IMG/VR virus record: IMGVR_UViG_3300035698_007976
Span: 1-36,978 of that record
DNA from: a virus
DNA: 36,978 nucleotides
Strand: one strand, 5' to 3'
Both the position numbers and the translations under genes were made by a program. Shown in pieces: positions 989-31,694 of this stretch (positions within the stretch are counted from its first letter, which is position 1; each line of letters opens with the position of its first letter). The notes below the pieces were generated by a model, which searched no databases, was not told where the DNA came from, and was given only the letters and a program-made list of their open reading frames with translations.

Positions 989-994
989 TATAAT
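989..994 (+). promoter_or_regulatory. -10 box TATAAT before the first tail cassette gene
   Basis: Perfect TATAAT starts two bases after the TAG of the peptidase gene. Counting 7 bases from its last T puts the transcript start near G1001, so the mRNA leader would be about 11 bases and consist almost only of the GAGGAG ribosome site before ATG 1012. No -35 is seen at 16-18 bases. Confidence 0.5.
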
Positions 995-1011
995 GATGAA
1001 GAGGAGTATAT

Positions 1012-1389
1012 ATGGCATTTCCAGGAAGCTACAACTTTAATTATTATCGAGGAGACACCTTCGAGTTTAGGGTTTACCCAAAAGACTCCGCCGGTGGCAT
1101 CTTTGATCTAACAGGCTATGGAACTCCTCTTTTTACCATTTCCACATCGAGGGGCGCTACGGGTGTTGCGGATCAGATCAGTGGTTATGCTGTTGTTTCA
1201 GCAGACAAGACACACATTCTTTGTGCTATTGAGCCAGACGTAGGAATTGACCTAGAGGCCGGAACCTCATATGTTTATGATATAGAAATTTCTAAAACTG
1301 ATGTTGTTTATGACAAAAAGTACACACTGCTAACCGGAAACATCACCGTCACCGATCACGTTTCTGGCGCGACCGGGGTTTCTTCGTAA
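1012..1389 (+). CDS. Small beta-rich tail/baseplate protein (BppU N-terminal-like)
   Basis: 125 residues. The start YNFNYYRGDTFEFRVYPKD, then DLTGYGTPLFTIS, follows the pattern of the short beta-sandwich domain found in phage baseplate upper proteins and similar tail-tip proteins (RGD/T-x-F, then a DLTG loop, then paired strands). It ends with a strand-rich YDKKYTLLTGNITVTD. A GAGGAG ribosome site lies 6 bases before the ATG. The stop overlaps the next start as TAATG, so the two are translationally coupled. A role as an attachment adaptor for fibre proteins is inferred from the fold pattern and position. No enzymatic motif is seen. Confidence 0.6.
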   Translation: MAFPGSYNFNYYRGDTFEFRVYPKDSAGGIFDLTGYGTPLFTISTSRGATGVADQISGYAVVSADKTHILCAIEPDVGIDLEAGTSYVYDIEISKTDVVYDKKYTLLTGNITVTDHVSGATGVSS

Positions 1390-1961
1390 TGGCAGAGATC
1401 GTACTTTCTAATCCAGAAATTGCTGTTCTAGGCGGTCCAGCTTCTGTTAACGTTGAGCTAGACTTCGGATCATCGGGAGAAAGAGGAAGTAGAATTTTTG
1501 CCGGTATTGGAAAGCCAGCAACTGCCGGATTGTCCCCAAACCTTTTTGATATGTACATTAACTATGACGCAGACGACGATGAATTTTCTTTTATGTATCA
1601 GTATTTAAATCAAGATGGAGGAGACCAGTGGGTAAGCGTTATTAAGCTAATTCCAGAAGCATATTCCAGCAGACCATCTCCTACCTTTGTTTCTGGAGAG
1701 GTCACACTGAATATTCCAGTTCATCAAATTATTCCCGCTACGCTTTCCGGAGGGGCAGCAACACCAGATAATTTTGCAGTCCAGATTTCTTTTTCTGGAA
1801 CAAATCCAGTTGCATACTCGATAGAATATCCTACAGACCTAACTTATTCAGGATCAAATATTTTCTTTTCACCAACCATTCATGCATCAGAGCTTTCTAG
1901 CGGAACGTGGTCACCAGTTGCAGGAGAGAAAGAATTTAGCGTTTCCGTTACTGTGGTATAA
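1389..1961 (+). CDS. Tail-associated structural protein
   Basis: 190 residues, starting at the ATG that overlaps the previous stop (TAATG). The segment GSSGERGSRIFAGIGKP followed by LFDMYINYDADDDEFSFMYQ is a common phage tail module: a G-x-x-G-x-R-G-S-R-I collagen-like or turn-rich entry, then D-x-Y-I-N and a strand ending in Y-Q-Y. The C-terminal half is predicted beta. No enzymatic motif is present. It probably assembles with the preceding BppU-like protein at the tail tip or side fibres. The end of the gene (GTATAAT) doubles as a -10-like box for the next one. Confidence 0.6.
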   Translation: MAEIVLSNPEIAVLGGPASVNVELDFGSSGERGSRIFAGIGKPATAGLSPNLFDMYINYDADDDEFSFMYQYLNQDGGDQWVSVIKLIPEAYSSRPSPTFVSGEVTLNIPVHQIIPATLSGGAATPDNFAVQISFSGTNPVAYSIEYPTDLTYSGSNIFFSPTIHASELSSGTWSPVAGEKEFSVSVTVV

Positions 1962-1962
1962 T
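1954..1962 (+). promoter_or_regulatory. Extended -10 (TGGTATAAT) overlapping a stop codon
   Basis: The TAA stop of the 1389-1961 gene lies inside TATAAT (1957-1962), with TGG in front as in extended -10 promoters. The predicted start at about G1969 gives a leader of about 11 bases that begins with the GGTGA ribosome site of the gene at 1980. Confidence 0.5.
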
Positions 1963-1979
1963 TGCCTAGGTGATACTAT

Positions 1980-2630
1980 ATGGCTAATGTTGGATTCTTC
2001 TTTAACACTCAGATTCCGGATTTGGATGACGATGCCAATATTCAAGATGCCCTAAAACAATATCACTACGGCGGTGGCGAACCAGCAAATGAGTCTTCTG
2101 CATCTATTGTAGAAAACTCTATAGCAGGTCACTTTCAGGCGGTAGCAGAAAAGTTTGCAGACATACTGGAATATTATAGAACCGGTGGAGACTTTGTTGG
2201 TACAGAACCAACGGGAACACCATCTGGAACAAATCTGGAAGAGGGGATTCCAGACGGATATATCTGGGTTGATTCTTCTGTTTCTGGAGGACCTTCAACA
2301 ACATACTATGCTTCTGTCTTTTATTCTAATTCGGAACCAACAGAAGACTTAAGTAGTGGAGTGGTTTGGGTTGACAAAGACTCTGCTCTAAAAACCGCTT
2401 ATGTTTACGACGCTGACCTGGTGGCCTGGATTCCAATTAATGATTTTGCAAATGCCGTTTCTGCAAAGGGAGATATCCTTGTCGGAAACTCTGCTACAGA
2501 TTTAGACAGTCTTTCTGTTGGTCAGAACGGATACGTTTTAACAGCTGACAGTACCGCTACTCTTGGTGTTGCTTGGGCTCCCTCAGATATAGAGGAAGAA
2601 AAAATAGCAACCATTATGGGAGTATACTAA
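1980..2630 (+). CDS. Tail fibre protein with C-terminal GDILVG/GQNGYVLTAD module
   Basis: 216 residues. The N-terminal part (IQDALKQYHYGG, then SIVENSIAGHFQAVAEKFAD) looks alpha-helical. A middle part has IPDGYIWVDSS and SGVVWVDKDS, short W-V-D strand repeats. The C-terminal SAKGDILVGNSATDLDSLSV, then GQNGYVLTADSTATLGVAWA, is the widespread phage fibre module that usually precedes collar or chaperone domains. Here the protein stops soon after it, so it may serve as an adaptor for a separate distal fibre. The AGGTGA ribosome site sits 6-7 bases before the ATG. Confidence 0.65.
   Translation: MANVGFFFNTQIPDLDDDANIQDALKQYHYGGGEPANESSASIVENSIAGHFQAVAEKFADILEYYRTGGDFVGTEPTGTPSGTNLEEGIPDGYIWVDSSVSGGPSTTYYASVFYSNSEPTEDLSSGVVWVDKDSALKTAYVYDADLVAWIPINDFANAVSAKGDILVGNSATDLDSLSVGQNGYVLTADSTATLGVAWAPSDIEEEKIATIMGVY
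2623..2628 (+). promoter_or_regulatory. -10-like box TATACT overlapping a stop codon
   Basis: TATACT shares its last T with the TAA stop (2628-2630) of the preceding fibre gene. Its predicted start near 2635 is 12 bases before ATG 2647. No -35 is visible. It is part of the series of gene-start boxes described in the findings. Confidence 0.35.
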
Positions 2631-2646
2631 AAGAAAGATATGGAAA

Positions 2647-2949
2647 ATGGCAATTTTACAAGCAACGCTTTATAGAGGAACTGCACCAACCTCAAACGGA
2701 ACACTTTATGCTGTGCCAAATGGTCAAGAGGCAGTGGTTACAAACATTGTTGTAACAAACACCACAACAGCAACTCTAAGTGCTACGATAAGTTTAGATG
2801 GTGTCACAATTATTGATGAAAGCCCTGTTTCTGGAAACGATGTTATTGTTTTTGACATTAAGCAAGTTATTGCATCAGAAGAGATAATTGAAGGCTTTGC
2901 CTCTTCTTCCGGACTAAACTTTCACATCAGCGGTGTAGAAATTTCTTAA
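2647..2949 (+). CDS. Small beta-sandwich tail protein, paralogue of the protein at 9640
   Basis: 100 residues of alternating strands (AVVTNIVVTNTTTATLSATI, then SLDGVTIID, then FHISGVEIS). The style matches small phage proteins of the type V-P-x-x-x-x-x-x-x-x-I-V-x-x-N-T-T that coat or cap tail structures. The protein at 9640-9972 has the same size, the same MA-x-L-x-x-x-x-L-Y-x-G start and the same ISGVE ending. Each is followed by a fibre gene. An AAGA-type ribosome site precedes the ATG. No catalytic motif is seen, and the function is inferred as structural. Confidence 0.55.
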   Translation: MAILQATLYRGTAPTSNGTLYAVPNGQEAVVTNIVVTNTTTATLSATISLDGVTIIDESPVSGNDVIVFDIKQVIASEEIIEGFASSSGLNFHISGVEIS

Positions 2950-2959
2950 GGAGTAATAT

Positions 2960-3940
2960 ATGGCCACCATAGACAATACAGGAAATCTTGCGTACATTTA
3001 TGACGAAGATTCCGATACTTGGTATGCTATGGCCGGAACAGCAAATGCAACCCTGCCCTATGTTTGGAGCGCGTCACATACGTTTGAAAACTCGGTAAGC
3101 TTTGAGAGTGTTCTAACCTCTCAGGCTGGAATAAACAACTTTGCAACAGTTGCAGCAAGAGATACAGTAATCTCATCTCCATCTAATGGCGTTGTGTGTT
3201 TTATACAAAACTTGAATCAACTTCAGTACTACAGTAACGGTTGGAGATTTGTTGGGGACGATGTAAAGCTATCAACAAAGTCTGCTACCCACACACTTGA
3301 GCTTGCCGATGGAGGCAAAACAATTTTGGTTAACTCGAACATAGGAACAATTATCTATGTTCCAACAAATACAACCGTTCCGTTTCCAGTAGGACAGGTT
3401 GTTAAAATAGTTCAAATCGGATCCGGATCAGTAAACGTAATTGCCGAATCTGGATCAGTATCGGTCAGAAGTAGGGACAGCATAAACAGGCTAGCCGGCA
3501 GATACTCGGAATCCAAGATTGTTAAGATTGCAGAAAACGAATGGGTTCTTTCCGGTGATCTTAATTTTTCAGAAAACATAGATGTAACGTTTGATCCAGA
3601 TTTTGATCAAATAGTCTCTGCCCCAAATTACGATATAGATGTAACTAATGAATCTTCTGGTACATCTATTGTTGTCAATTTTGCTGGTGGTACCGGTCTT
3701 GTTCGTAAAACAGTTATCGGCAACAGTACATTCTCTGGACAAAACTATAGGCCAGGATCAATTAAAACCGTTCTTTTAATTAACGGAACAGGAACAAAGA
3801 CTCTAACTTTTCCGACAGACTGGACATTCTTAGGTCAGAAACCAGTATCAATAGATGGAGACAGGGTTGGGGTATTGAGCGTTACTTCTTTTGGTGATTC
3901 AGCATCTGAAGTTGTAGCCTCATGGATTGTAGAGGTTTAG
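2960..3940 (+). CDS. Tail fibre/adhesin protein
   Basis: 326 residues. The N-terminus reads like a fibre anchor (AYIYDEDSDTWYAM) with a repeated Y-x-x-x-x-W pattern. Residues about 110-200 hold a beta module (GQVVKIVQIGSGSVNVI, then RYSESKIVKIAENEWVLSGD) that recurs in the protein at 4819-5235. The C-terminal third ends in strands (TLTFPTDWTFLGQKP). The ribosome site AAGGAGT overlaps the preceding stop. The gene lies directly before a glycine-rich adhesin and probably provides its shaft or base. No enzyme motif is visible. Confidence 0.6.
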   Translation: MATIDNTGNLAYIYDEDSDTWYAMAGTANATLPYVWSASHTFENSVSFESVLTSQAGINNFATVAARDTVISSPSNGVVCFIQNLNQLQYYSNGWRFVGDDVKLSTKSATHTLELADGGKTILVNSNIGTIIYVPTNTTVPFPVGQVVKIVQIGSGSVNVIAESGSVSVRSRDSINRLAGRYSESKIVKIAENEWVLSGDLNFSENIDVTFDPDFDQIVSAPNYDIDVTNESSGTSIVVNFAGGTGLVRKTVIGNSTFSGQNYRPGSIKTVLLINGTGTKTLTFPTDWTFLGQKPVSIDGDRVGVLSVTSFGDSASEVVASWIVEV

Positions 3941-3942
3941 AA

Positions 3943-4794
3943 TTGCCTCTTCTTGGTTTCAGAAACTTTGCGTCTTTTGGTGGATACTCTCCAATATTTG
4001 CTTCTGGTGGAAACGCCGTAGAAGATGTTGTTGATGGAGATATCAGATACAGGGTTCATATGTTTCAAGATAGCAATGACTTTGTTGTTGGTAACCTTGG
4101 TACAACTAATGGATCCGTAGAGTATTTAATAATTGGTGGCGGTGGTTCAGGTGGCTATCAAATAGGTGGTGGTGGTGGTGCCGGTGGATTTAGGTCCGGA
4201 ACAGTCACTTTGTCACCAACTGCATATTCAGTTTTAGTAGGCGCCGGAGGAATAATAGTTTCTAATGCTGGACAGAATGGTGGCCTTAGTTCGTTTGCTT
4301 CTGTGATTTCAGCAGGAGGAGGTGCTGGCGGAAACTTTATAAATAACACAACAGCAACCAATGGCTCTTCTGGAGCTTCTGGTGGTGGAGGCTCATCCAT
4401 TCAAGGTACCGCTGGCAGAATTGGAGGATCGGTGTCTTCATCTGGACAAGGAAATCCTGGTGGAGCCGGTATACGATACATAGATGGTGGATTCTCTTCC
4501 GGAGGCGGTGGTGGGGCTTCTTTGCCAGGTTCCGTTGCAACAAGATCCCAGGCAGGAAATGGTGGCAGGGGACTTATTTCTAGAATAACAGGTGAAAACA
4601 TTTATTACGCTGGAGGAGGTGCCGGAGGTTTTCAAAGAGATTTTGGAGCCTCTCTAACATCGGGTAACGGAGGTCTTGGCGGTGGTGGAGGCTCAAATAA
4701 TCCAGGGCTTAATGGTTTTGGCGGTGGTGGAGGAAATAACAGATCTGGAGGATCTGGTGTTGTTATAATCAGGTATCCTCTAAACCTGGTATAA
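3943..4794 (+). CDS. Glycine-rich tail fibre adhesin
   Basis: 283 residues from TTG 3943. This start is chosen because AGAGG at 3931-3935 sits 7 bases upstream and the start falls just after the previous stop; ATG 3922 in the same frame would overlap the previous gene by 19 bases and has no ribosome site. The N-terminal strand block (VDGDIRYRVHMFQDSNDFVV, then VEYLIIGGGGSGG) leads into a glycine-rich domain with GGGGAGG, SVLVGAGG, ASGGGGSSIQG and GGNGGRG blocks, and ends with GVVIIRYPL. This is the typical layout of glycine-rich receptor-binding domains that fold as polyglycine-II helix bundles, as described for phage S16 gp38. The protein probably contacts the host surface. The same domain occurs twice in the 1050-aa protein at 5242. 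Confidence 0.75.
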   Translation: MPLLGFRNFASFGGYSPIFASGGNAVEDVVDGDIRYRVHMFQDSNDFVVGNLGTTNGSVEYLIIGGGGSGGYQIGGGGGAGGFRSGTVTLSPTAYSVLVGAGGIIVSNAGQNGGLSSFASVISAGGGAGGNFINNTTATNGSSGASGGGGSSIQGTAGRIGGSVSSSGQGNPGGAGIRYIDGGFSSGGGGGASLPGSVATRSQAGNGGRGLISRITGENIYYAGGGAGGFQRDFGASLTSGNGGLGGGGGSNNPGLNGFGGGGGNNRSGGSGVVIIRYPLNLV

Positions 4795-4795
4795 T
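4787..4795 (+). promoter_or_regulatory. Extended -10 (TGGTATAAT) overlapping a stop codon
   Basis: The TAA stop of the glycine-rich adhesin (4792-4794) lies within TATAAT (4790-4795), preceded by TGG. The predicted start near A4802 gives a 17-base purine-rich leader (AGAAGAAAGAGAGACAG) before ATG 4819. Confidence 0.5.
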
Positions 4796-4818
4796 TGTTT
4801 TAGAAGAAAGAGAGACAG

Positions 4819-5235
4819 ATGGGCAAAACTACCTTTAGGCCTGAGAATTTTGATGGGCCATCTTACCCAGATGTTTTTTCGATTTCAAATACTTCTTATA
4901 CAGTTCAGTCATCCGACGCCGGAAACCTTTTAAAGTTTACAAGTGATGATAATGTTTCTGTAACTATTGCGCAAAATTCAGAAGCTGTGATACCAATTGG
5001 GTCAACGATCACAATAATGCAATTAGGAAATGGAGTAATCACCGTTTCCCCATCTTCTGGTGTGCAGATATTAGGAATTTCTTCTTTAGTTTCTAGAGGT
5101 CCGTACCATACAATAACATTGGCAAAGTCGGACACAGATCAGTGGATTACTCCAACAGATAATGGACCATTGAAGGTATCAGTACAAGAAACGGAGCCAG
5201 ACAATCCACAAGTTGGCGACTTATGGTTTTGGTGA
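4819..5235 (+). CDS. Small tail fibre module protein
   Basis: 138 residues, almost wholly one beta domain. NLLKFTSDDNVSVTIAQNSE, then VIPIGSTITIMQLGNGVITV, then YHTITLAKSDTDQWI match the module in the protein at 2960-3940 (hydrophobic strand, P-x-G-x-x-x-x-I-x-Q-x-G-x-G, strand, then a closing K-x-x-x-x-x-W). The C-terminus (PDNPQVGDLWFW) is the common short W-rich fibre end. A purine-rich leader supplies the ribosome site. It is likely an accessory piece of the same fibre as its neighbours. No enzymatic motif is seen. Confidence 0.55.
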   Translation: MGKTTFRPENFDGPSYPDVFSISNTSYTVQSSDAGNLLKFTSDDNVSVTIAQNSEAVIPIGSTITIMQLGNGVITVSPSSGVQILGISSLVSRGPYHTITLAKSDTDQWITPTDNGPLKVSVQETEPDNPQVGDLWFW

Positions 5236-5241
5236 CCTATT

Positions 5242-8200
5242 ATGAGTGGAATATCAACAATAAATGGCTCAAACTCCGTAGTCAACAGTAGCTCTTCTTC
5301 AAATCAACAGAGAAGCACCTTTAGGTTACCAGAAACCAGAAGAGACAACAATGGCAATATGCCAATTGCCATAACTGGAATATCCTTATGGATAGCTTCT
5401 CAGTCAGAAACTAGGCAGGTTAATTTAGTTGTAAATAATGCTTTAACAGAAAATTTCTTTCCAGTTATTTCTACCTCAGCAACTGAAGAGTCTGGCATCC
5501 TTCCAATATTTGCTGTGGTAGATGATTCAGAAACAGCGCAAACCGTTTCTTTTGGACACAACACCAATGGAGCTGTTTTTTTTGGGACAAGGCCGTTAAG
5601 TGGGACAAACATAACTCCATTAACAAATGGAACAGGTAGAAGCTATGTTGGAAAATTTACTTACGCAGAAGTCCCCTCAAAGCCTTTAAACTTTACTGTT
5701 CACAGTCCCACAGACCACTCTGTAACACTTAGATGGGAAAAGCCGGAAACGGATGGTGGTGTACCAATAAAAAAGTATGTTATTCAATATTCTAAAAATC
5801 AATTCGGCAGGACCGGAGCAAATGGCGGAGGGCAGCAGGAGCTAGAAGATTTCATTGAAGTAGAGACAAAAAGCACAAACATTGTTGTTGATAGCTTGGA
5901 TAGTGATACACAGTATTGGTTTAGGATTTTAGCTGCAAACCGCATATACAACGGCGTAAGCGTTTCCAGGGGCTCAGAGTGGACTGCGCCACTAAACGTA
6001 AAAACTTCTAAGCCAATTCCGTACTGGCCATCCCTATCTGCTTCCAATCTTGGAGAGTCTTTTATTGATACCAGTGGAGGAGATACAAATGGCTACTTGA
6101 TCCTAGATACAGCAAAGCCAGTCCTAGGATCTTCTTTTTATGCTGACGTGTTTGCCCAAGACGCAGAGTATTATGATATTGTAAATGGCTCTCTACCACC
6201 CGGTCTTTCTATAGACAATCTTAATGGGATCGTGAAGGGTATTCCGGAAACCGTAGGAGAATATTCGTTTACTATAAGTGCTGCAAACGAATTAGGAAGC
6301 GCTAACAAAGATTTTGTTTTACAGGTTACAGAGTTTGCAAATCAAAATTCTACACTTAACCCAGAAATTCGAGTTGGCTCTTACTATGTTGCCAATATTG
6401 CTGTAGCAAACGCAACGGGGTATTCACTTATTTCTAGCACCCTTCCCGTTGGCCTAGAATTAGATATTTTAAGAGGAAGAATATACGGCGTACCACAGTT
6501 CACTGGAGACAATACTTTTACAATTAGAACGTTTTTAAGTGTTTCTCCAACAACGGTAGATCGGGAGTTTTCCATATTGGTTAAGCCAAACATAACTATA
6601 TTTAAAGATATTGGTGGTGTTGTCGGACAAACAGACGGCTACGTTGGAAAAAAGTGGGATGGCTCGGACTGGGTAGACTTTGAAGAAACAAAAAGATTTG
6701 ATGGGGCAGACTGGGTAGATCTCAGCTATCCGGTTAGACAAATACAAGCAATTGGTGGCACTATTGTTGAATATAACGATGGTGGACTTAGGTACAGATC
6801 TCATATCTTTTCCGCTAGCGGAACATTTGAGGTAATAAGTCTAGGAGAATCAAGCGATACCGTATCTTTCCTTTCTGTTGCCGGAGGAGGTTCTGGTGGC
6901 GCTGGGAGCTCCCTAGGCTCTGGGGCGGGTGGCGGAGGCGGCGGTCTAGTCTATGGAACTTCAGTTATATCTCCTGGAGTATACAACGTAATTGTTGGAA
7001 ACGGCGCTTTAGCATCTTTTATTAATTCTAGGGGAAGCAACGGAGAAAACTCTTCTGTGTTTGGGGTTTCTTCTATTGGTGGAGGTGGTGGGGCAAGGGG
7101 TGGCTCTTCTGTAACCCTAGACAAAGCTGGACAGAATGGTGGATCTGGCGGTGGGGCTGCTGGAAATGGTACCCCAGGTGCGGGGACTGGTTCTGGATCT
7201 TCTATACAAGGGCATCTTGGCGGCAACGGCTCGGGCTCATCAGATGGATCCGGATCTTCTGGTGGAGGTGGTGGAGCCTCTCAGGTTGGGGCTAATGGAT
7301 CATCAACAATACCCGGATCCGGAGGCAACGGTAAGCCATTTAATTTATCGGGATCCTATCTTTCTTACGGCGGTGGCGGTGGAGCGGGTTCTGTAAGTAT
7401 AGATAACCCAGGAGCCTCCGGAGGTTCCGGTGGTGGAGCAAACGGACAAAACTATGACTCTGTAACAAACACCGCTCCTTCCGGATCTAACGGATTAGGC
7501 GGCGGCGGTGGAGGGGCTAGGGCTATCACAAACAGCTTAGGCGGCCCAGGCGGCAGCGGAATAGTAATAATTAGATATCCAATTGGATTTAGTGCATTTA
7601 CTGCTTTAACCGCTACGGGTGGAACAACTTTTGATATAGACGATCAGGGGATTATCTATAGGGTTCACCAATTTTCTTCAACAGGTTCCGGAGAGTTTTC
7701 TGTCCTTGGATTAAGTGACGATCCAAATGCAAATATATTAGAATACCTTATTGTAGGCGGAGGGGCCTCTGGTGGCGCAGCAGACAATGAGTATGAGGCC
7801 GGAGCGGGCGGCGGCGCCGGTGGTGTTGTCTCCGGTACTATAGAGATTTCTTCTCCAGAAAATTTTACTATTTTGGTTGGTTCCGGAGGAGCCTCTGTTG
7901 GGTCACCCAGTAGTTGTCCGCCAGGAAATAACGGAGGAATTTCTTCTTTTCGTGTTGTCACAGCTACTGGTGGCGGAGGCGGGGGGTCCGGCCAGGGCGC
8001 CAGCGGGAAGAGTGGTGGATCGGGCGGTGGTGCCGTTTGGAGAGGCGGTTCTGTTGGAACAGGAATATCTGGTCAGGGAAATAACGGTTCAAAGATAACA
8101 TCAAACAATGGCCAAGGCGGCGCTGGAGGAAGTTCTGGAAACCCCATTGCCGCAACTCAAGTAAGAGTAGCATCTTTAGGTAGAACTTCTGGAATAATCG

Positions 8201-8394
8201 GCCTAATCACAGAATATGCTAGGGGTGGAAACGGTGGTGTTTCAACTTCTTCTTCCGGAGGAGCAGCGACTACAAGCGGTGGCGGAGGCGGTGGCGGAAG
8301 GGCCTCCGGAGAAGGTGCGGGAAATCCAAATCAAAGAATGGGCCCCAGCAGCCCAGGCCTTCCCGGCATTGTTATAGTTAGATATAAGGTATAA
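5242..8394 (+). CDS. Large adhesin: FN3 and Ig-like domains plus two glycine-rich domains
   Basis: 1050 residues. Order: a Ser/Asn-rich start, then a beta domain to about residue 140; a fibronectin type III domain at about 143-255 (PSKPLNFTVHSPTDHSVTLRW, then a Q-Y-W-F-R-I-L-A-A-N strand); two putative Ig (He_PIG) domains at about 306-363 (NGSLPPGLSIDNLNGIVKGI) and 381-449 (LPVGLELDILRGRIYGVP); two W-D-G-x-x-W linkers near 470-495; then two glycine-rich domains at about 503-785 and 793-1050. Each glycine-rich domain starts with a strand block ending in VAGGGSGG or IVGGGASGG, and each ends in IVIIRYP or IVIVRYK. FN3 and Ig domains are frequent in tail proteins and bind surface sugars weakly. 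The glycine-rich domains are likely the receptor contact. The gene follows the 4819 gene by 6 bases, with only a weak ribosome site (GGTGA). Confidence 0.8.
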   Translation: MSGISTINGSNSVVNSSSSSNQQRSTFRLPETRRDNNGNMPIAITGISLWIASQSETRQVNLVVNNALTENFFPVISTSATEESGILPIFAVVDDSETAQTVSFGHNTNGAVFFGTRPLSGTNITPLTNGTGRSYVGKFTYAEVPSKPLNFTVHSPTDHSVTLRWEKPETDGGVPIKKYVIQYSKNQFGRTGANGGGQQELEDFIEVETKSTNIVVDSLDSDTQYWFRILAANRIYNGVSVSRGSEWTAPLNVKTSKPIPYWPSLSASNLGESFIDTSGGDTNGYLILDTAKPVLGSSFYADVFAQDAEYYDIVNGSLPPGLSIDNLNGIVKGIPETVGEYSFTISAANELGSANKDFVLQVTEFANQNSTLNPEIRVGSYYVANIAVANATGYSLISSTLPVGLELDILRGRIYGVPQFTGDNTFTIRTFLSVSPTTVDREFSILVKPNITIFKDIGGVVGQTDGYVGKKWDGSDWVDFEETKRFDGADWVDLSYPVRQIQAIGGTIVEYNDGGLRYRSHIFSASGTFEVISLGESSDTVSFLSVAGGGSGGAGSSLGSGAGGGGGGLVYGTSVISPGVYNVIVGNGALASFINSRGSNGENSSVFGVSSIGGGGGARGGSSVTLDKAGQNGGSGGGAAGNGTPGAGTGSGSSIQGHLGGNGSGSSDGSGSSGGGGGASQVGANGSSTIPGSGGNGKPFNLSGSYLSYGGGGGAGSVSIDNPGASGGSGGGANGQNYDSVTNTAPSGSNGLGGGGGGARAITNSLGGPGGSGIVIIRYPIGFSAFTALTATGGTTFDIDDQGIIYRVHQFSSTGSGEFSVLGLSDDPNANILEYLIVGGGASGGAADNEYEAGAGGGAGGVVSGTIEISSPENFTILVGSGGASVGSPSSCPPGNNGGISSFRVVTATGGGGGGSGQGASGKSGGSGGGAVWRGGSVGTGISGQGNNGSKITSNNGQGGAGGSSGNPIAATQVRVASLGRTSGIIGLITEYARGGNGGVSTSSSGGAATTSGGGGGGGRASGEGAGNPNQRMGPSSPGLPGIVIVRYKV

Positions 8395-8395
8395 T
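8390..8395 (+). promoter_or_regulatory. TATAAT at leaderless spacing from ATG 8402
   Basis: Perfect TATAAT ends exactly 6 bases before ATG 8402 and overlaps the TAA stop of the previous gene. With the last T at -7, the A of the ATG is base +1, the classic leaderless layout. There is no Shine-Dalgarno sequence before this ATG, which fits. Confidence 0.55.
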
Positions 8396-8401
8396 AGTAA
8401 A

Positions 8402-8890
8402 ATGATTAAACTTATTGCACACGTTGATAAAAAAAATTGGACTATAGATGGAGAGGCAGATCCATCATCTGTAGATATTGGAATCGGCGTTCGTGACAAC
8501 AATGGTCTTGGCGTAAAATTTGTTAACGTAAAACTGGGGTTTAAGTTTTTTAATTCAAATAATGATATTATTCAATTTGGAAACTTCCCACCATCAAGGG
8601 TAAGGTACATAGAAAGCAATGAGGACATTCTTGCATTTTCTGTCGTAGATCAGCTAGAGCCAAACACAAAATATAAGATTGAAGCCTGGATAGAGGACAT
8701 AAACTACAGTTTTGCCGGCAGCTTTGAAATTACTACCCCGCTGCCAGCCAAGCCTTATCCTTCCTGGATATTTGATTCTAACTATAATTCTTGGATTGCT
8801 CCAGTAAATCCACCGATGAAAGACTTGCCAGATGACAAAAGGTACTCTTGGAATGAAGAAGGCCAGTGTTGGGATGTTGTAAAAAAGTAA
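8402..8890 (+). CDS. Tail protein with C-terminal W-rich motif
   Basis: 162 residues. The first two thirds are beta-rich (VDIGIGVRDNNGLGVKFVNV) and resemble an Ig-like domain. The C-terminal 45 residues carry KPYPSWIFDSNYNSWIAPVN, then PDDKRYSWNEEGQCWDVV, a spaced-tryptophan motif I recognise from aquatic phage structural proteins (P-S-W, then W-x-A-P-V, then P-x-D-x-x-x-Y-x-W-x-E). No ribosome site precedes the ATG, and a TATAAT sits at leaderless distance. It is likely a tail or fibre accessory protein. The motif's exact role is not known to me. Confidence 0.6.
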   Translation: MIKLIAHVDKKNWTIDGEADPSSVDIGIGVRDNNGLGVKFVNVKLGFKFFNSNNDIIQFGNFPPSRVRYIESNEDILAFSVVDQLEPNTKYKIEAWIEDINYSFAGSFEITTPLPAKPYPSWIFDSNYNSWIAPVNPPMKDLPDDKRYSWNEEGQCWDVVKK

Positions 8891-8911
8891 CAAACTCAAC
8901 TTTAATAAAAA

Positions 8912-8920
8912 TGTTATAAT
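8912..8920 (+). promoter_or_regulatory. Extended -10 (TGTTATAAT)
   Basis: TGT plus TATAAT lies in the 55-base gap before ATG 8946. The predicted start near G8927 gives a leader of about 19 bases that contains GGAG (8938-8941). No -35 is seen. The rest of the gap is AT-rich with no hairpin. Confidence 0.5.
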
Positions 8921-8945
8921 TAAATAGAACTATTATGGAGAAAAA

Positions 8946-9626
8946 ATGATACAAAGAATGCAGCAGAGGCGCGGACTTGAGTCTCAGTGGACTTCTGTCA
9001 ACCCCATTCTCGCTGCTGCAGAAATTGGATATGAGCTAGATAATAATAAGTTTAAAATAGGCGATGGAATTACGCCATGGAATGACTTGGGTTATTTTGA
9101 AGATGCCTCAAGCGTTCAGCAATTAATTCAAGACCTTATTGGTGCCGCACCAGAAGTTCTCGACACACTGGAAGAGCTTGCCGCAGCAATAGAGAACAAT
9201 CCAAACTTTTTTACAGACATTGCAGACGATATTGCCTCAGCACAGTCAGCAGCAAACAACTACACAGACATGTCTATAGGAAATCTTAACCTATCAGGCG
9301 GTACAACGGGACAGGTTCCTCAAAAAAATTCTAGCGACGAGTATGACATAAGCTGGGCAGACCCAGTCAGGTCCTTGAATGATATTGATGACGTTTCTGC
9401 AGAGACACCATCTAACTCAGACACTATTCTGTATAATTCATCAACAGGAAACTGGGAAGCTGGTCAGATAAACCTTAGCGACCTACCAGGTGTTCCATCA
9501 GTAATAGGAGATCTTTCTGATGTTAGCATAACAGATCCCCAACGAGATGATATACTAGTGTATGATGGTACTGAGTGGAAAAATGGTACTAGTGATCTGG
9601 AGGTTTTGTTTTGGACATACGCATAG
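8946..9626 (+). CDS. Tail fibre protein with Mtd-like N-terminal domain
   Basis: 226 residues. The N-terminus (RRGLESQWTSVNPILAAAEI, then FKIGDGITPWNDL) matches the major tropism determinant N-terminal (Mtd_N) pattern seen at the base of many phage fibre proteins. It is followed by a helical DLIGAAPEVLDTLEELAAAI, common in fibre shafts. Later come a short GGTTGQVPQKNSSDEYDISW module, equivalent to the GQNGYVLTAD module at 1980-2630, and an IGDLSDVSI, then ILVYDGTEWKNGT end. No C-type lectin variable domain follows, so this is not a diversity-generating Mtd itself. It probably anchors other fibre parts. The start has GGAG 4-5 bases upstream. Confidence 0.7.
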   Translation: MIQRMQQRRGLESQWTSVNPILAAAEIGYELDNNKFKIGDGITPWNDLGYFEDASSVQQLIQDLIGAAPEVLDTLEELAAAIENNPNFFTDIADDIASAQSAANNYTDMSIGNLNLSGGTTGQVPQKNSSDEYDISWADPVRSLNDIDDVSAETPSNSDTILYNSSTGNWEAGQINLSDLPGVPSVIGDLSDVSITDPQRDDILVYDGTEWKNGTSDLEVLFWTYA

Positions 9627-9639
9627 GAGGTAGCAAGTA

Positions 9640-9972
9640 ATGGCAGCTTTAGTGCCTTCGTTATTGTATATAGGCAATGACACAATTGGTTCAATTTACG
9701 ACTCTCCCGAAGCGGCAGGGAGCTATGCTATAATTAAGTCAATCAATGGAACAAATACCTCTAACGCAACAACAACATTTTCTTTACATATTCTTGTTGG
9801 TGGTGCGGAGGCAGCAAACTCTAACAAGATATTAAACGAGGCAGAATTGACAGTTGGAAACACCCTAGCTTATGACACTTCGATTGTTGTGCCGGCAGAC
9901 TCTAGTCTTTATATTACTCAGCCAGGTAACGCAGTTACAGTTACTATCAGTGGGGTAGAGTATGTCGCTTAG
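9640..9972 (+). CDS. Small beta-sandwich tail protein, paralogue of the protein at 2647
   Basis: 110 residues: SYAIIKSINGTNTSNATTTF, then SLHILVGG, then SLYITQPGNAVTVTISGVEY. The I-x-x-I-x-x-x-N-T-S-x-A-T-x-T-x-x-L-H pattern is typical of small phage proteins built of one beta sandwich on the tail or baseplate. It has a strong ribosome site, AGGAGGT at 9625-9631, 8 bases before the ATG and overlapping the previous stop. Its last 11 bases overlap the start of the 3007-aa gene, so the two are probably translationally coupled and the proteins may interact. Confidence 0.6.
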   Translation: MAALVPSLLYIGNDTIGSIYDSPEAAGSYAIIKSINGTNTSNATTTFSLHILVGGAEAANSNKILNEAELTVGNTLAYDTSIVVPADSSLYITQPGNAVTVTISGVEYVA

Positions 9973-12900
9973 ATATCTTAAGGACTCCGCCGAAGAGGGT
10001 AAAAACGAAGTTTCACCTATTGCAACCTTTGTTGATCCAGTTAGCAAGATTCGCGTCTCTCAGCCAGAGAACCTTATTGATACAGACTTTGAGTATGGCC
10101 TTCAGGAGACAAAGTGGGAGACACTTGAACGAGTAAACAATATTCCAACATTTTTTGCAAGACCAGGAGACCCACCTATTGATGTTTCTATCGTTACCGC
10201 AACTGTTGGTTCATCTAGAGTTGTAGTAACAACAAACACAGATCACGGACTTGTTGTTGGTTCTCCACTAATTGTTCAGGGTGTAGATTCTTTTAGTGCT
10301 AATGGTGCATTTGTTGTAGACAACGTAATTAATGATAAAGAATTTACCTATGTTTGTAAAGAGGTACAGACCAGGCCAGGCGCTTCGGAGGGCAGCTTCT
10401 TCAATATTATAAAAGAAGAAACAGTGATATATATTGGTAGACTTTACCAAGGGACACAGGCAAAGCTAGATGTGTTAGATTCGATCACCACCGATGGCCT
10501 AGACCCATCAAGACTTACTGTAAAAACGCCACATCCACACGGATTCTCTGAAGGAACCAGGTTTGTATTGAGCAACAGCGTTGGTGGTAAGACATACAAG
10601 TTTGACGCCTCTCTAATAGACCCCTCTGACTTTGAAAACTTAACAACTCCAGAAATAGACTCTTATACTCAAATAAAAGAAGCATACACTTATCAAGACT
10701 GGGACGGTGCTTATAGTGCAAAGTTTACGTCTGATGACGTAGACGTATATTATAATACAATAAACGTTCCAAATCATCCGTTTAATAACGGAGACATGGT
10801 TATGTATATTCCAGCAGTAGATGTAGAAACAGACAGCCAGACCGCTGACGAGGGCAATATCCATACAGATAGTGCAATGGGTAATGTTGGAAGATATAGA
10901 ACTCCATATTGGGTTGGCGTACTTGACGAAAACACTATTCAGCTTACAGTTTCTGAATTTAATGTAAATTACAGACCACCATCTGTTCACGATATTTCTT
11001 CTATGGGTGATACAAACTTTGGGTATCACCAATTAGCAAAGTGCTACAGAATAGAAGCTTTATACACAGACAGCGTTATGCGGCTAAGGCAGCCGTATCG
11101 TGATACAAACTCTTCAGAAGCACAAGAAGTTTACGTTTTTTCTACCAGTACTGGAATTCAACCAGCAGCAACAACTATGTCTTTTAAAAACTATACCTCT
11201 AATGATGCGTACACTCCAAGATGGTATAAGTTCTACTTAAAGAATTATGATGGAAGCAATGTAACTAACTTACCCACATCTGCAGGAAATGCTATTTTAA
11301 GATTTGGGGCTTTGGGTGTAAACGTCTCAACTGACACAATTACCATTACGCCAGGATCAGATTTTGACCTTTTGGGCTCAATGCCACTAAATGGAAACAC
11401 GGAGGGTGTCTCTAACTCTAGCCTAAGCTCTGGATACTGGCAAACTGGAGACCAGGTTAGACTTTGGAGAAGAAAAGGAGAAACCACACCGGGAAATATT
11501 GGTGAAGGTACCTATTACTATATTCGTGTTATTGACGATAGCAGATTTACTTTGCATACCACAAGGGCCGGAGCCATTGCAAACAACAGCAGGCTAGATA
11601 TTACAAGCACAGGCTCAATAGACCTTGAAATTATTGTTGAAAAACAAAACAGATTCTTTAAACTATATACAGACGCTGCCTTAACTCAGGAGCACGTTCT
11701 TTCAGGCACCGGTATAACCGGTACAACCTGGATTGTACCAGCAACAACGGTTGAGAATAGGTCTTCTATAAACGATCTTACCGTCGGGCAAAATGCATTC
11801 TCTAATCTAAACAGTGGAGACGTTCTTACTGTAGAGTCTTTTGACAATTCTCTTGAAACAGACGTTCCTGTTCCTCAAACAAGGGTAAGCTCAACTACCT
11901 ACGAAGATGTTTATCTTTACCCCGCTATCAACCTTAATGTTGATAGCCCACTAATTTATCCAAGATCTGGAAGAACTCTGTACTACATTCCAAATGGTAC
12001 AAAAATGAAACACCAGACCAGACCAGCTTCTATGATTGTTAACTGCCAGTCTATAAACGTCTCAAACAGGCAGTGGACTACAATTAGTAGTGGAGACGAG
12101 CACTACTTTACACATGGCTTTAAAAACGGAGACAAGGTTACCTGGAAACAGATTCCTTCCATTATTAGCTTTAACGCTAGAGACGTTAACATTAACAATG
12201 GTCGGATTTCTTTATGGAACGGTTATGGAGATACTAGGAATGGTGACAGGGTTCGAGTAAAGAAGGCCGGAGCAATCACTGTGCTCCCAGCCGGTTTAGA
12301 CGAAGAAACCGATTATTTCTTAAGAAGAATCACCACAAACGTTCTTACCCTGCACACAACAGAAGCAGATGCAAACTCAGGAGCAAACCCAGTAACGATA
12401 ACCTCAAGGGGAATGGGTAACTGTACATTAATTCATCAGGAAAACCTACCAGATGTTCTAAGGAACATAGAAGATCAGGAGGCATACTTTAGATTTGATT
12501 CAAATAGAGTATTTAGACTTTATGACACCAGGGAAAACGCTATTATCGGAGGTGCCACGGGACTTATTGAGTTAACCCCAAGGGGTGGTTGGGCAGAATT
12601 TAGAAGTGTCCTGGATGAAACCACTGGACTTTTCTATGCACCAAACCACTATTATGAATTTGCTCAAAGCGCTGCAACTGTAGATACAGCGACCGACATT
12701 ATTACTACCCCAACACCACACGGTTTTCACACCGGAGAGCAGCTATATTATGTAGTTCAAGAAAACACACCAATCACTGGGCTTTCAAATCAAACCTGGT
12801 ACTTTCCAAATGTAATTGACGAGACAAGCTTTACATTGCACTCAAGCAGGGCTGACGCAAGAAACGGTGTGAGCAAGAGAGACCTTTCCGGTACCCCAAT

Positions 12901-18987: not shown

Positions 18988-18996
18988 TGTTAAAAT
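18988..18996 (+). promoter_or_regulatory. Extended -10 (TGTTAAAAT)
   Basis: TGT plus TAAAAT lies in the 27-base gap after the 3007-aa gene. The predicted start at G19003 is the first base of GGAGTT, the ribosome site for ATG 19013, leaving a leader of 10 bases. Confidence 0.45.
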
Positions 18997-22600: not shown

Positions 22601-22611
22601 TATGGTATACT
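22594..22611 (+). promoter_or_regulatory. Overlapping -10 boxes TATAAT and TGGTATACT at leaderless spacing
   Basis: TATAAT (22596-22601) overlaps the TAA stop of the LamG-type gene. A second box, TATACT (22606-22611) preceded by TGG, ends 7 bases before ATG 22619. Transcription from the second box would start at or one base before the ATG, giving a leaderless mRNA. There is no Shine-Dalgarno sequence here. Confidence 0.5.
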
Positions 22612-24603: not shown

Positions 24604-24636
24604 TTGCAATTTTTAAATATTTTATCAAAAAGGCAG

Positions 24637-24642
24637 TATAAT
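24637..24642 (+). promoter_or_regulatory. -10 box TATAAT before the protease gene
   Basis: TATAAT lies 9 bases before ATG 24652, directly joined to GGAG (24643-24646). If this is a real -10, the transcript would start near A24649 and would not include the GGAG. Either transcription starts slightly earlier or the box is not a promoter here. The weak fit lowers confidence. Confidence 0.3.
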
Positions 24643-24651: not shown

Positions 24652-25983
24652 ATGACTATATCTAAGGCTCATTGGGATATGGAAGGCGATAGCCTTCGTC
24701 TATCTATGCCCTTCAGCAAAGTTGACGTTGAGAGACGAATCGTCTCCGGCTTTGCGACCTTGGATAATCTGGATAAGCAGGACGATATTGTCACCACAGA
24801 TGCCAGCATGAAAGCTTTCGAAAAGTTCCGTGGTAATATTCGTGAGATGCACCAGCCAAAAGCTGTAGGCAAAATGGTTTCTTTTAAAGAAGACAAGTAC
24901 TTTGATCCAGAGTCAAAAAAGTTTTATACAGGAGTTTACGTTTCTGCATATGTTTCCAAGGGTGCACAAGATGCCTGGGAAAAAGTTGTAGATGGAACAT
25001 ATACTGGGTTTTCTATTGGTGGAAGAATGAACAAGTGGGATGATGCCTACAACGAAGAGATTGACAAGTCTATTCGAGTCATTAAAGATTATGACCTGGT
25101 TGAGCTGTCTCTAGTAGACAGTCCAGCAAATCAGTTTGCAAACATCTTGTCTATTGAAAAGGTAGATGGAGTTGATGTCTTAAAGGGCCAAGTCATGGAC
25201 ACGGTTCTTGAAAATGTTTTTTGGGATTCCGAATCTGGATTGGTTATGCTTTCAGAAAACGACTCAGAGGTTAGCCCATCAACAGGAGAACCAATGAAGA
25301 ATATTGGCTTTGTGGAAAAGTCAGATTCAGACAAAAAAGATGTAGTAAAATTCTTAATTGATAGTGCTAAAGGCATTAATACAGTTAAGATAACAAAGGA
25401 GGTAAGTCCTATGACTGAAACAACAGAAGATCTCGTTGAGAAATCAGACGAGGTTGTTGAAGAGGTAGAGGTCGCTCCAGAGGCAGATGCCGAGACTGAA
25501 GAGGTAGCAGAAGAAACAAAGGCTGATGAAACAGCTGATGTTGAAAAGGCTACCGATGCAGAAGCAGAGGTAGAAGATACCGATGCAGAAGCAGATGTTG
25601 AGAAATCCGAAGCCGTTGAGGCAGAGTTAGAGGTATCTAAGTCAGACGATGGAATTATTGCCGAGGCAGTTAATGAAATCAAAGATACCCTTACATCAGC
25701 CTTTAGCGATCTAGCAGAAACCGTTAAGTCTCTACATGAGCAGGTTAATGCACTAAACAAATCAATTACCGGTGTTTCCGAAGAGGTAGCAGAAACTAAA
25801 AGGGAGTTTGCTGCCGCTAAAGAACATTTTGATGAGTTTGGAAAGCGAGTCGACGCAGTAGAAGCAGAGACAGCTTTCCGCAAGTCTGGCGATCTTGGCG
25901 AGATCGTACAGGAACAACCAGAAATGGTTGAAAAATCCCTATGGGGCGGTCGTTTCCTCAAAACTGCCGACTTATTTAAATAA
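24652..25983 (+). CDS. Prohead protease (S78/XkdF-like) fused to scaffold domain
   Basis: 443 residues from ATG 24652, with GGAG 5 bases upstream; a TTG at 24604 would add 16 residues without support. Residues 1-165 are the protease: ERRIVSGFATLDNLDKQDDI, catalytic His67 in REMHQP, Ser121 in GFSIGG, and the family ending LVELSLVDSPANQFANI. The His and Ser spacing fits HK97 gp4 (His65, Ser114). Residues about 280-345 are very acidic (Glu, Asp, Ala repeats) and 350-425 are a predicted coiled coil (LAETVKSLHEQVNALNKSI), typical of a scaffold that fills the prohead and is later digested. A strong ribosome site at 25395-25403 starts a second, shorter product. The capsid gene follows. Confidence 0.88.
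   Translation: MTISKAHWDMEGDSLRLSMPFSKVDVERRIVSGFATLDNLDKQDDIVTTDASMKAFEKFRGNIREMHQPKAVGKMVSFKEDKYFDPESKKFYTGVYVSAYVSKGAQDAWEKVVDGTYTGFSIGGRMNKWDDAYNEEIDKSIRVIKDYDLVELSLVDSPANQFANILSIEKVDGVDVLKGQVMDTVLENVFWDSESGLVMLSENDSEVSPSTGEPMKNIGFVEKSDSDKKDVVKFLIDSAKGINTVKITKEVSPMTETTEDLVEKSDEVVEEVEVAPEADAETEEVAEETKADETADVEKATDAEAEVEDTDAEADVEKSEAVEAELEVSKSDDGIIAEAVNEIKDTLTSAFSDLAETVKSLHEQVNALNKSITGVSEEVAETKREFAAAKEHFDEFGKRVDAVEAETAFRKSGDLGEIVQEQPEMVEKSLWGGRFLKTADLFK
25395..25403 (+). promoter_or_regulatory. Strong internal ribosome binding site (AAAGGAGGT)
   Basis: A nine-base match to the Shine-Dalgarno consensus lies inside the protease/scaffold frame, 8 bases before an in-frame ATG (25411). It is as strong as any ribosome site at a gene start in this window, and the spacing is ideal. 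It decides the internal start of the free scaffold protein. Confidence 0.7.
25411..25983 (+). CDS. Free scaffold protein from an internal in-frame start
   Basis: 190 residues, starting at ATG 25411, which is residue 254 of the protease/scaffold protein. The product (MTETTEDLVEKSDEVVEEVE and onward) holds only the acidic region and the C-terminal coiled coil and lacks the protease. It would be the main scaffold, while the full-length product brings the protease into the prohead. This is the same logic as lambda C/Nu3, where the scaffold gene is nested in the 3' part of the protease gene. Evidence is the AAAGGAGGT site at ideal spacing and the exact domain boundary. No experiment can be read from sequence, so this stays an inference. 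Confidence 0.65.
   Translation: MTETTEDLVEKSDEVVEEVEVAPEADAETEEVAEETKADETADVEKATDAEAEVEDTDAEADVEKSEAVEAELEVSKSDDGIIAEAVNEIKDTLTSAFSDLAETVKSLHEQVNALNKSITGVSEEVAETKREFAAAKEHFDEFGKRVDAVEAETAFRKSGDLGEIVQEQPEMVEKSLWGGRFLKTADLFK
25551..25595 (+). repeat. Short in-frame direct repeat in the acidic scaffold region
   Basis: An 18-base unit (TACCGATGCAGAAGCAGA) occurs at 25551-25568 and again at 25578-25595, a 27-base (9-codon) period encoding A-T-D-A-E-A-E-V-E-type repeats. Replication slippage here would add or remove nine acidic residues without breaking the frame. Confidence 0.7.
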
Positions 25984-25985: not shown

Positions 25986-25991
25986 TAAAAT
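25986..25991 (+). promoter_or_regulatory. -10-like box TAAAAT before the capsid gene
   Basis: TAAAAT sits 3 bases after the protease stop. The predicted start at G25998 is the first base of GGAGGTG, so the leader would be 12 bases, beginning with the ribosome site of ATG 26010. No -35 is visible. Confidence 0.45.
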
Positions 25992-27144: not shown

Positions 27145-27186
27145 ATATGAGGGGGGCAGGGGCTAACGCTCTTGTCCCCCTTATAT
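27145..27186 (+). terminator. Rho-independent terminator after the capsid gene
   Basis: A 13-bp stem (27151-27163 with 27168-27180, including three G-T wobbles) closes on a TAAC loop flanked by C and G. Six further A/T-rich pairs (27145-27150 with 27181-27186) extend it. The 3' side is TTATATATT. The loop C(UAAC)G is the same as in the terminator at 30941, and it belongs to the UNAC tetraloop class known to resemble GNRA loops. Confidence 0.85.
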
Positions 27187-27192: not shown

Positions 27193-27201
27193 TGTTATAA
27201 T
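27193..27201 (+). promoter_or_regulatory. Extended -10 (TGTTATAAT) after the capsid terminator
   Basis: TGT plus TATAAT follows the capsid terminator, where a new transcript is needed. The predicted start at G27208 is the first base of GGAGG, so the leader would be 10 bases (GGAGGATAAA) before ATG 27218. Confidence 0.6.
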
Positions 27202-27634: not shown

Positions 27635-27635
27635 T

Positions 27636-29640: not shown

Positions 29641-30215
29641 TGGCAATACACTACCCACCGGTTTTCATTAATCGCTATCTACAAGATAAGCTGCCAGATG
29701 ATTCCATGAACAACTCTATTCCTTTTTTCCCCACAACGCCATCCAATCTAGATGAGTTGACGCAGTCATACCCAGACGGATTATTTGGCGTTTACGACAG
29801 AATGTTTAAGCTAAGAAGAACCCCATTTCCTCACTTAAAATATGAACAACTTTTGTATTACTTTTATAAAACTACAGAGGGACCGGCAAAGCTAATTGAA
29901 ACGGTTCAGTACGTATCTGACCTCTTAGATAGAGGAGATGAGTCGGCGCAGGAATTAAATGCCTGGACTCTTGCTCAGCACAAAGCGCAAGGTAGTCAAA
30001 CTAGCACAGGAACAAACATCGTAACTGGAGAAACTAAAACATACAACAAAGTTTCATTTGGCGGAACAGACTTCCTTTTGCCATATTTCCATGAGTTCAG
30101 GATATTCCAGCTAGAGGAGGCAAGAGATATTGTTGATTTTGGAACAGCTAGAACTTATGCCGGTAACAAGTTAATCATAGATTACTGTTGGCATGAATCA
30201 GATCCATTATTCTAA
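29640..30215 (+). CDS. Probable tail terminator protein
   Basis: 191 residues from ATG 29640, overlapping the previous stop; GGGAG lies 10 bases upstream. An in-frame ATG at 29610 would overlap the previous gene by 31 bases and is less likely. Visible blocks are YPPVFINRYLQDKLPDD, then FGVYDRMFKLRRTPFPH, then KYEQLLYYFYKTTEGPAKLI and LPYFHEFRIFQLEEARDIVD. The size, the position just before the tail tube gene and the order in the neck block point to a tail terminator that caps the tail tube. I do not see a decisive motif. Arginines are nearly all AGA/AGG. Confidence 0.5.
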   Translation: MAIHYPPVFINRYLQDKLPDDSMNNSIPFFPTTPSNLDELTQSYPDGLFGVYDRMFKLRRTPFPHLKYEQLLYYFYKTTEGPAKLIETVQYVSDLLDRGDESAQELNAWTLAQHKAQGSQTSTGTNIVTGETKTYNKVSFGGTDFLLPYFHEFRIFQLEEARDIVDFGTARTYAGNKLIIDYCWHESDPLF

Positions 30216-30233
30216 TTTTTTATAAAAAGCCTG

Positions 30234-30239
30234 TATAAT
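30234..30239 (+). promoter_or_regulatory. -10 box TATAAT before the tail tube gene
   Basis: TATAAT lies in the 77-base gap. The predicted start near 30246 gives a leader of about 47 bases, much longer than at most other starts here. The leader ends with GAGGTGA at 30280-30286 before ATG 30293. No -35 is seen. A TTTTTATAAAAA palindrome at 30217-30228 lies just upstream. Confidence 0.5.
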
Positions 30240-30292
30240 TAGTATTGAGGAAACGCGCCTGTTATTTCTTATGAAAGAAGAGGTGAACAACT

Positions 30293-30919: not shown

Positions 30920-30940
30920 TTACTAAAGCTAAAAGGATTT

Positions 30941-30969
30941 GCCCAGGCTAACGCCTGGGCATTTCTTTT
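30941..30969 (+). terminator. Rho-independent terminator after the tail tube gene
   Basis: GCCCAGGC (30941-30948) and GCCTGGGC (30953-30960) form a perfect 8-bp GC-rich stem around TAAC, followed by ATTTCTTTT. The loop is the same C(UAAC)G as in the capsid terminator. It should separate the abundant tube mRNA from the chaperone genes. Confidence 0.9.
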
Positions 30970-30977
30970 GCTACAAT
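30969..30977 (+). promoter_or_regulatory. Extended -10 (TGCTACAAT) at leaderless spacing
   Basis: TGC plus TACAAT follows the T-tail of the terminator. The last T (30977) is exactly 6 bases before ATG 30984, so the A of ATG would be +1. No Shine-Dalgarno sequence is present, which fits a leaderless transcript. Confidence 0.55.
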
Positions 30978-30983
30978 TAGTTA

Positions 30984-31676
30984 ATGGCAACAAAAATTTA
31001 TGATACTGGTTTGGTTGAGTTTTTCGACGGTACTGTTTTAGAGCTAAAACCAATCAAGATAAAATACCTCAGAGAGTTTATGGATGAATTTCAAAAACTA
31101 AAAATGGCTACAAGCGATGACGAAGCTTTTGTGGTTTTGACTAAATGTGCATCTATATCTATGAAAGAGTTTAAAAAAGAGTTTTCGGATCCTAGCGTTC
31201 TTGAAGATAATATGGACGTCTCTACGTTATATGAAATACTAGACCTTACGGCTGGTATAAAGATAGATAAAGAAAAAAACGAAGAGGGGGAGGTCAAGAA
31301 ACAAGCCGAAGAAAGCGGATCGTCTTGGGACAACCTAGACTTGGCAGAACTAGAAGCAGAAACGTTTTTGATTGGTATCTGGAAAGATTATGAAGAGCTA
31401 GAGCTTTCTCTTTCTATGCCAGAACTTCTGGCGACCTTGAATTCTAAAAGAGATCTTGAGTATAACGAAAAGAAGTTTTTGGCAGCAATGCAGGGCGTTG
31501 ACTTAGATAAACAATCTGGAAAACAAAACGAATGGGAAAAAATGAAGGCAAAGGTTTTTAGCAAGGGCATTACAGACAACCCGAATGATATTGTTGCACT
31601 TCAAGGAGTGAACGCTCAGCAAGCTGGATTTGGCATAGGCCTAGGTCTTGGGTACGAAGACATGCGTAAAAAATAA
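30984..31676 (+). CDS. Tail assembly chaperone, long form (G-T-like)
   Basis: 230 residues. The N-terminal about 95 residues (DGTVLELKPIKIKYLREFMD, then TLYEILDLTAGIKI) match the short chaperone at 31745. The rest (WDNLDLAELEAETFLIGIWK, then MPELLATLNSKRDLEYNEKK, then AMQGVDLDK and AGFGIGLGLGYED) is the T-like extension that in many phages is reached only by a -1 programmed frameshift. Here both parts are in one frame. A slippery heptamer A-AAA-AAC (31274-31280) sits in frame at the junction. The protein should bind the tape measure and recruit tube subunits. It has no ribosome site and a leaderless-type promoter, so lower output than the short form is likely. Confidence 0.8.
   Translation: MATKIYDTGLVEFFDGTVLELKPIKIKYLREFMDEFQKLKMATSDDEAFVVLTKCASISMKEFKKEFSDPSVLEDNMDVSTLYEILDLTAGIKIDKEKNEEGEVKKQAEESGSSWDNLDLAELEAETFLIGIWKDYEELELSLSMPELLATLNSKRDLEYNEKKFLAAMQGVDLDKQSGKQNEWEKMKAKVFSKGITDNPNDIVALQGVNAQQAGFGIGLGLGYEDMRKK
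31274..31280 (+). other. Slippery heptamer A-AAA-AAC in the chaperone gene
   Basis: In the reading frame of the 30984 gene the codons are GAA AAA AAC, so the heptamer is in phase for -1 slippage. It lies where the short-form domain ends and the extension begins. A -1 shift here would lead to an Arg-rich tail of about 38 codons before a stop, which does not look like a real domain, so it may be a relic or chance in A-rich DNA. Confidence 0.4.
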
Positions 31677-31685
31677 GGCTCTCTG

Positions 31686-31694
31686 TGTTATAAT
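31686..31694 (+). promoter_or_regulatory. Extended -10 (TGTTATAAT) before the short chaperone
   Basis: TGT plus TATAAT lies 10 bases after the long chaperone's stop. The predicted start near A31701 gives a leader of about 44 bases, ending with AAGGAGG (31729-31735), 9 bases before ATG 31745. No -35 is seen. Confidence 0.55.

Follow-up and report, generated by a model that had tools for sequence, protein, structure and literature searches.

Putative extended -10 promoters close upstream of genes in the structural module of an uncultured phage and in its relatives

In the viral DNA analysed here, a linear virus record of 36,978 bases with about 42% G+C whose called genes all lie on the plus strand (in the following, the window), many start codons are preceded at short distance by a TATAAT-like box. 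An earlier note had taken these boxes for promoters of gene-by-gene late transcription, similar in logic to the late promoters of phage T4. This raises two questions: whether the boxes are more than a product of base composition, and, if they are promoters, which polymerase and which factor would recognise them.

The window and its boxes

The window contains genes for an M23 peptidase, tail-fibre-like proteins, a 3007-aa virion protein, the portal and the prohead protease, followed by the major capsid protein, connector-region genes and an Ig-domain major tail protein, and ends with a pair of similar genes that resemble tail chaperone genes, and with the beginning of the tape measure gene. The best cultured matches by protein were the Streptomyces phages of about 130 kb of the family Stanwilliamsviridae and the Rhodococcus phage Trina, which share the portal-to-tape-measure gene order of the window; the portal, protease, capsid and tail proteins of phage Wofford are roughly 40-48% identical. 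The window represents the structural gene module of a relative of the Stanwilliamsviridae, a family of large Streptomyces phages. Homologues of the family's portal, protease, capsid and tail proteins stand in matching order in this fragment; since Trina, outside the family, has the same gene set and order, this does not decide membership. A DNA-level search of cultured phages with positions 1-12000 gave no match, and two scans of bacterial genomes for a host of this virus gave no relative; an actinobacterial host is presumed. For comparison, 80 uncultured relatives were retrieved, and nine long related records served for the density statistics.

Two further observations concern the gene content. 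The 3007-aa virion protein is encoded by a single gene (9962-18985), matches baseplate-wedge and structural families and has no box directly upstream. The adjacent genes 30984-31676 and 31745-32059 both match phrog_10504, each has its own conserved box, and the pair looks like a duplicated tail assembly chaperone.

All ten perfect TATAAT hexamers reported earlier were recovered, and they lie 12 to 59 nt ahead of accepted starts. Two of these starts were corrected: TATAAT 24637 belongs to ATG 24652, 15 nt away, and TATAAT 27196 to ATG 27218, 22 nt away. A preceding TGn, claimed for at least seven of the 14 listed boxes, was found at exactly seven (1957, 4790, 8915, 18991, 27196, 30972 and 31689). 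The zones of 60 nt before starts make up 3.8% of the window sequence; on the plus strand 11 of the 21 TATAAT hexamers fall into these zones (binomial p about 6e-11), as do seven of the nine matches to TGnTATAMT (binomial p about 4e-9), and the minus strand has one TGnTATAMT match. When the upstream regions were shuffled with dinucleotides preserved, 1.5 genes with a perfect box were expected, and the seven observed were reached in none of 1000 shuffles. The same test gave no enrichment for one-mismatch boxes as a class (12 genes, where 9.7 were expected, p = 0.18), and the start-upstream zones hold 15 one-mismatch matches on the plus strand compared with 26 on the minus strand. With no excess over shuffles or over the opposite strand, these forms were dropped as evidence. 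The shuffle count proposed in the earlier note hence speaks for the perfect hexamer and not for the degenerate ones.

Because the one-mismatch forms are not enriched, the four that had been listed count only where relatives support them. This holds for 18991 and 30972. The box at 2623, which shares one base with a stop codon, belongs to a gene without orthologs, and the TAAAAT at 25986..25991 before the capsid gene 26010 is not kept in 27 aligned relatives and is unsupported as a promoter.

The sites are as follows, all on the plus strand. The TATAAT at 989..994 has no TGn and lies 23 nt before gene 1012, for which no orthologs were found. Extended -10 boxes of the form TGGTATAAT at 1954..1962 (23 nt before gene 1980) and 4787..4795 (29 nt before gene 4819) include the stop codon of the upstream gene; the latter gene has an additional, upper box, TGTTATAAT at 4761..4769, which is absent from the earlier list. 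At 8390..8395 a TATAAT without TGn, also including the upstream stop, stands at leaderless spacing 12 nt before ATG 8402. The form TGTTATAAT recurs at 8912..8920 (31 nt before gene 8946), at 27193..27201 (22 nt before gene 27218, with GGAGG in the leader) and at 31686..31694 (56 nt before gene 31745), where nearly all orthologs have TGnTATAATt. The box TGTTAAAAT at 18988..18996 lies 22 nt before gene 19013; the orthologs have TGnTAAAAT or similar, in several of them at leaderless spacing, and the gene switches between leaderless and short-leader forms. Ahead of ATG 22619 the conserved box is the extended -10 TGGTATACT at 22603..22611, 13 nt before the start, and not the neighbouring TATAAT at 22596. 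Gene 30293, for the major tail protein, has its -10 at 30234..30239, 59 nt upstream, where orthologs keep TATAMT, usually with TGn. In the extended -10 TGCTACAAT at 30969..30977 the first T of the hexamer is exactly 12 nt before ATG 30984, which predicts a leaderless gene; the orthologs have TGGTATACT at identical spacing. The frequent overlap with stop codons described earlier exists in the window (1957, 4790, 8390, 22596 and one base at 2623) but is rare among relatives, where the box contains the stop of the upstream gene at 9 of 136 non-redundant sites.

Promoter grammar in the relatives

An equal density of the motif inside genes and before starts, named in the earlier note as speaking against promoters, was not seen. 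In the nine long relatives TGnTATAAT occurs at 2.34/kb before starts and at 0.01-0.02/kb inside genes, a difference of more than 100-fold; its orientation follows the gene strand, and permuted control hexamers showed no comparable enrichment before starts. The box is retained at orthologous genes although the flanks diverge, and box sites are spread throughout the genomes of the relatives, non-structural regions included. The same pattern was found in cultured Streptomyces and Rhodococcus phages, whose starts are independently annotated.

The distance between box and start codon, counted independently of gene calls, is not arbitrary. Of 242 sites, 51 have exactly 6 nt between TGnTATAMT and ATG; lesser peaks lie at 7 and 17 nt, and most other spacings have few sites. 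At 30 non-redundant whiB-region loci the 6-nt gap accounts for 52 of 159 sites. As the hexamer then occupies -12 to -7, the RNA would be expected to start on the A of the ATG. A Shine-Dalgarno sequence was present at one of 45 starts with leaderless spacing, compared with 73 of 86 starts at longer spacing and 496 of 821 genes overall. Two layouts therefore recur, one with 6 nt between box and ATG and no Shine-Dalgarno sequence, the other with a short leader and a Shine-Dalgarno sequence. The signature of leaderless genes, a -10 at about -12 and no Shine-Dalgarno sequence, is thus seen in the 6-nt peak of the relatives and in the window at 30969-30977 as well as, lacking TGn, at 8390; leaderless mRNAs are predicted from these boxes.

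The aligned upstream regions of 136 non-redundant sites in relatives contain no -35 information, and matches to TTGACA are at shuffle level, the exception being four of the 136 sites with a perfect TTGACA. At the level of the sequence these boxes thus behave as independent of a -35. Together these results support putative promoters of the extended -10 type that lack a -35, lie directly ahead of genes and would give very short leaders. A further candidate, a conserved pair TGATATACT/TGGTATACT that is separated by 102 nt and precedes dnaB in seven relatives, was rejected as in-frame coding sequence.

The promoter of the protease gene belongs to a second class. In the window it spans 24612..24642 and consists of TTTAAA (24612-24617), a degenerate -35-like element, an AAAAAGG tract and the TATAAT at 24637-24642, which has no TGn. 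In the orthologs the A-rich tract reads AAAAARG, and a hexamer resembling TTAACA or TTGAGA is present 17-19 nt upstream. This class is strongly conserved among 36 relatives: a match of at least four of six positions to TTGACA at 15-19 nt was found in 29 of the 36 orthologous upstream regions, compared with about 9.6 in shuffles. Consequently, the earlier statement that the boxes share no -35 is valid for the TGn class and fails for the box at 24637.

Terminator-like structures accompany some of the boxes. The hairpin after the major capsid gene (27145..27186) is predicted at -33.0 kcal/mol; a stem-loop after the major tail protein gene (30941..30960) is followed by ATTTCTTTT, and the region 30930-30975 folds at -25.7 kcal/mol. 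In the relatives a hairpin precedes 11 of 136 box sites compared with two of 690 box-less starts. After the capsid gene, the succession of hairpin and extended -10 is shared by the window, the relatives and the cultured phages as far as Trina, including Wofford, Muntaha and NootNoot, which also share the gene order from portal to tape measure; these cultured phages differ from the uncultured group in having mostly fewer and more varied boxes per gene. The predicted terminators after the capsid and tail genes are at least two putative unit boundaries. Strict gene-by-gene transcription, as proposed earlier, agrees with the boxes at many genes but not with the many box-less genes, which are probably read through from upstream.

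The factor recognising the boxes

We consider it quite probable that the boxes are extended -10 promoters of the housekeeping sigma factor of the host, the actinobacterial sigma-A, for which no -35 would be needed. They have the features of a sigma-70-type extended -10, namely TGn followed by a hexamer close to TATAAT, and an excess of such sites ahead of genes on their coding strand. The phage would place sigma-A promoters right in front of many genes throughout its genome, and transcription would begin about 7 nt after the box; a 6-nt gap to the ATG would yield a leaderless mRNA without Shine-Dalgarno sequence, a larger gap a short leader with one. In the structural module, boxes would restart transcription beyond the hairpins that follow the genes for the major capsid and major tail proteins, and further boxes would supply extra promoters within units that are otherwise polycistronic. 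From the sequence we infer that host sigma-A recognises the boxes, where transcription starts, and that some mRNAs are leaderless and translated as such.

Sigma-A promoters of Corynebacterium glutamicum have a weak -35 and numerous TGnTATAAT boxes, and 33% of the mRNAs are leaderless (PMC3890552). In a survey, leaderless genes are marked by a -10-like box some 12 nt ahead of the start codon and make up more than 20% of the genes in Actinobacteria (PMC3160421). The boxes described here share the TGnTATAAT form, the weak or absent -35 and the distance of about 12 nt from leaderless starts; they differ in lying in phage genomes, in their near-perfect TATAMT core and fixed 6-nt gap, and in that the RNA starts are predicted. 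The literature searched contained no usable transcription map or account of leaderless genes for these phages.

Several other explanations were considered. T4 late promoters consist of the octamer TATAAATA without a -35, a short box close to the late genes which is used with gp55, gp33 and gp45. By analogy, a phage-encoded sigma-like factor would steer the RNA polymerase to the boxes of late genes only. The boxes ahead of structural genes, their closeness to these genes and the missing -35 fit such a factor, and a sigma-70 factor is encoded by phages isolated on a freshwater actinobacterium (PMC10202952). We nevertheless regard this reading as quite unlikely. The aligned sites read as the ordinary housekeeping TGnTATAMT without an A-T-A extension, and not as this octamer. 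The sites are also not restricted to late genes, being distributed across the genomes of relatives and present at whiB-region genes. A sigma-70 region-2 protein was not found in 13 related records, and two other models gave no sigma-family match above the cut-off in 16 records including the window, although a very divergent factor such as gp55 would escape family models and the window is a fragment. Weak region-4 matches below the cut-off were discarded as small helix-turn-helix proteins. A search for a T7-type RNA polymerase gave no match, and the control genomes likewise gave none.

A phage product could also act on the host enzyme without being a sigma factor. WhiB-type proteins, an actinobacterial family, bind region 4 of sigma-A, and such a cofactor might weaken -35 recognition by the host polymerase with sigma-A and favour the extended -10 during infection. 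WhiB-family genes occur in two uncultured relatives and in Wofford, but they exceed the cut-off in only three of 14 records, some of them fragments; we judge this improbable. We are similarly doubtful of a phage protein without recognisable sigma homology that would remodel the polymerase so that it ignores the -35 and fires from extended -10 boxes, leaderless ones included, as a promoter class of its own. Finally, A+T-rich gaps and TAA stops could yield TATAAT by chance, in line with the shuffle-level frequency of one-mismatch forms and the TAA stop within several boxes. This is very improbable as a general explanation and is contradicted for the TGn class by the excess of perfect boxes over shuffles and in-gene density, the lack of comparable enrichment of control hexamers, the conservation at orthologs and the fixed 6-nt spacing; single boxes such as 22596, 25986 and 2623 may have arisen by chance.

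Host sigma-A would be the economical explanation, and the promoters look like borrowed host grammar used genome-wide rather than a special T4-like late system. A phage late sigma factor would then no longer be needed as a postulate. The promoter logic known from actinobacterial sigma-A is here seen in phage genomes. It gives many actinophages, cultured as well as uncultured, a simple and testable grammar of promoters, by which probably leaderless genes can be flagged and gene starts corrected. Since cultured Streptomyces and Rhodococcus phages have the same pattern, it is open to direct bench testing.

Complementary capsid and tail leaders

The leader of the major tail gene and the region just before the capsid gene contain stretches complementary to each other. 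In the window 11 nt are involved, TTGAGGAAACG at 30245..30255 near the predicted mRNA 5' end and CGTTTCCTCAA at 25951..25961 in the last protease codons (both on the plus strand). The window and each of the nine long relatives have the element TGAGGAAAC in the tail leader near the predicted 5' end and its reverse complement in the final codons ahead of the capsid gene; only two further copies were found in these ten records. Other clades have their own versions: TGAGGAAGTG / CACTTCCTCA in the Boydwoodruffvirinae (one mismatch in Tomas), GAGGAAGTGCC / GGCGCTTCCTC in the Loccivirinae (complementary with one G-U) and GGTAGGATT / AATCCTACC in Trina. The two sides thus change together between phage subfamilies, with covarying positions differing only between clades.

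When gene leaders are ranked by their pairing with that of the capsid gene, the tail leader comes first of 26 in the window, first of 42 in Wofford, second of 39 in Muntaha, seventh of 54 in Trina and second to seventh of 43-122 in the long relatives; the pairing energies are clearly better than simple shuffles in some phages and not in others. Because the capsid-side match is partly coding (Phe-Leu codons) and covariation is confined to differences between clades, the complementarity is no more than suggestive; RNA-RNA pairing or an inverted protein-binding site may underlie it.

The last protease codons at 25905-25961 (TCCCTATGGGGCGG..GTTTCCTCAAAAC.GCCGA) are near-invariant at the nucleotide level in 27 relatives, synonymous sites too. 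Behind them comes a short inverted repeat, rich in A+T and variable in sequence. In Trina (13800-13924) AATCCTACC and GGTAGGATT form an inverted repeat around the tail promoter box, and one arm is also found before the capsid gene; this repeat resembles an operator more than an RNA element.
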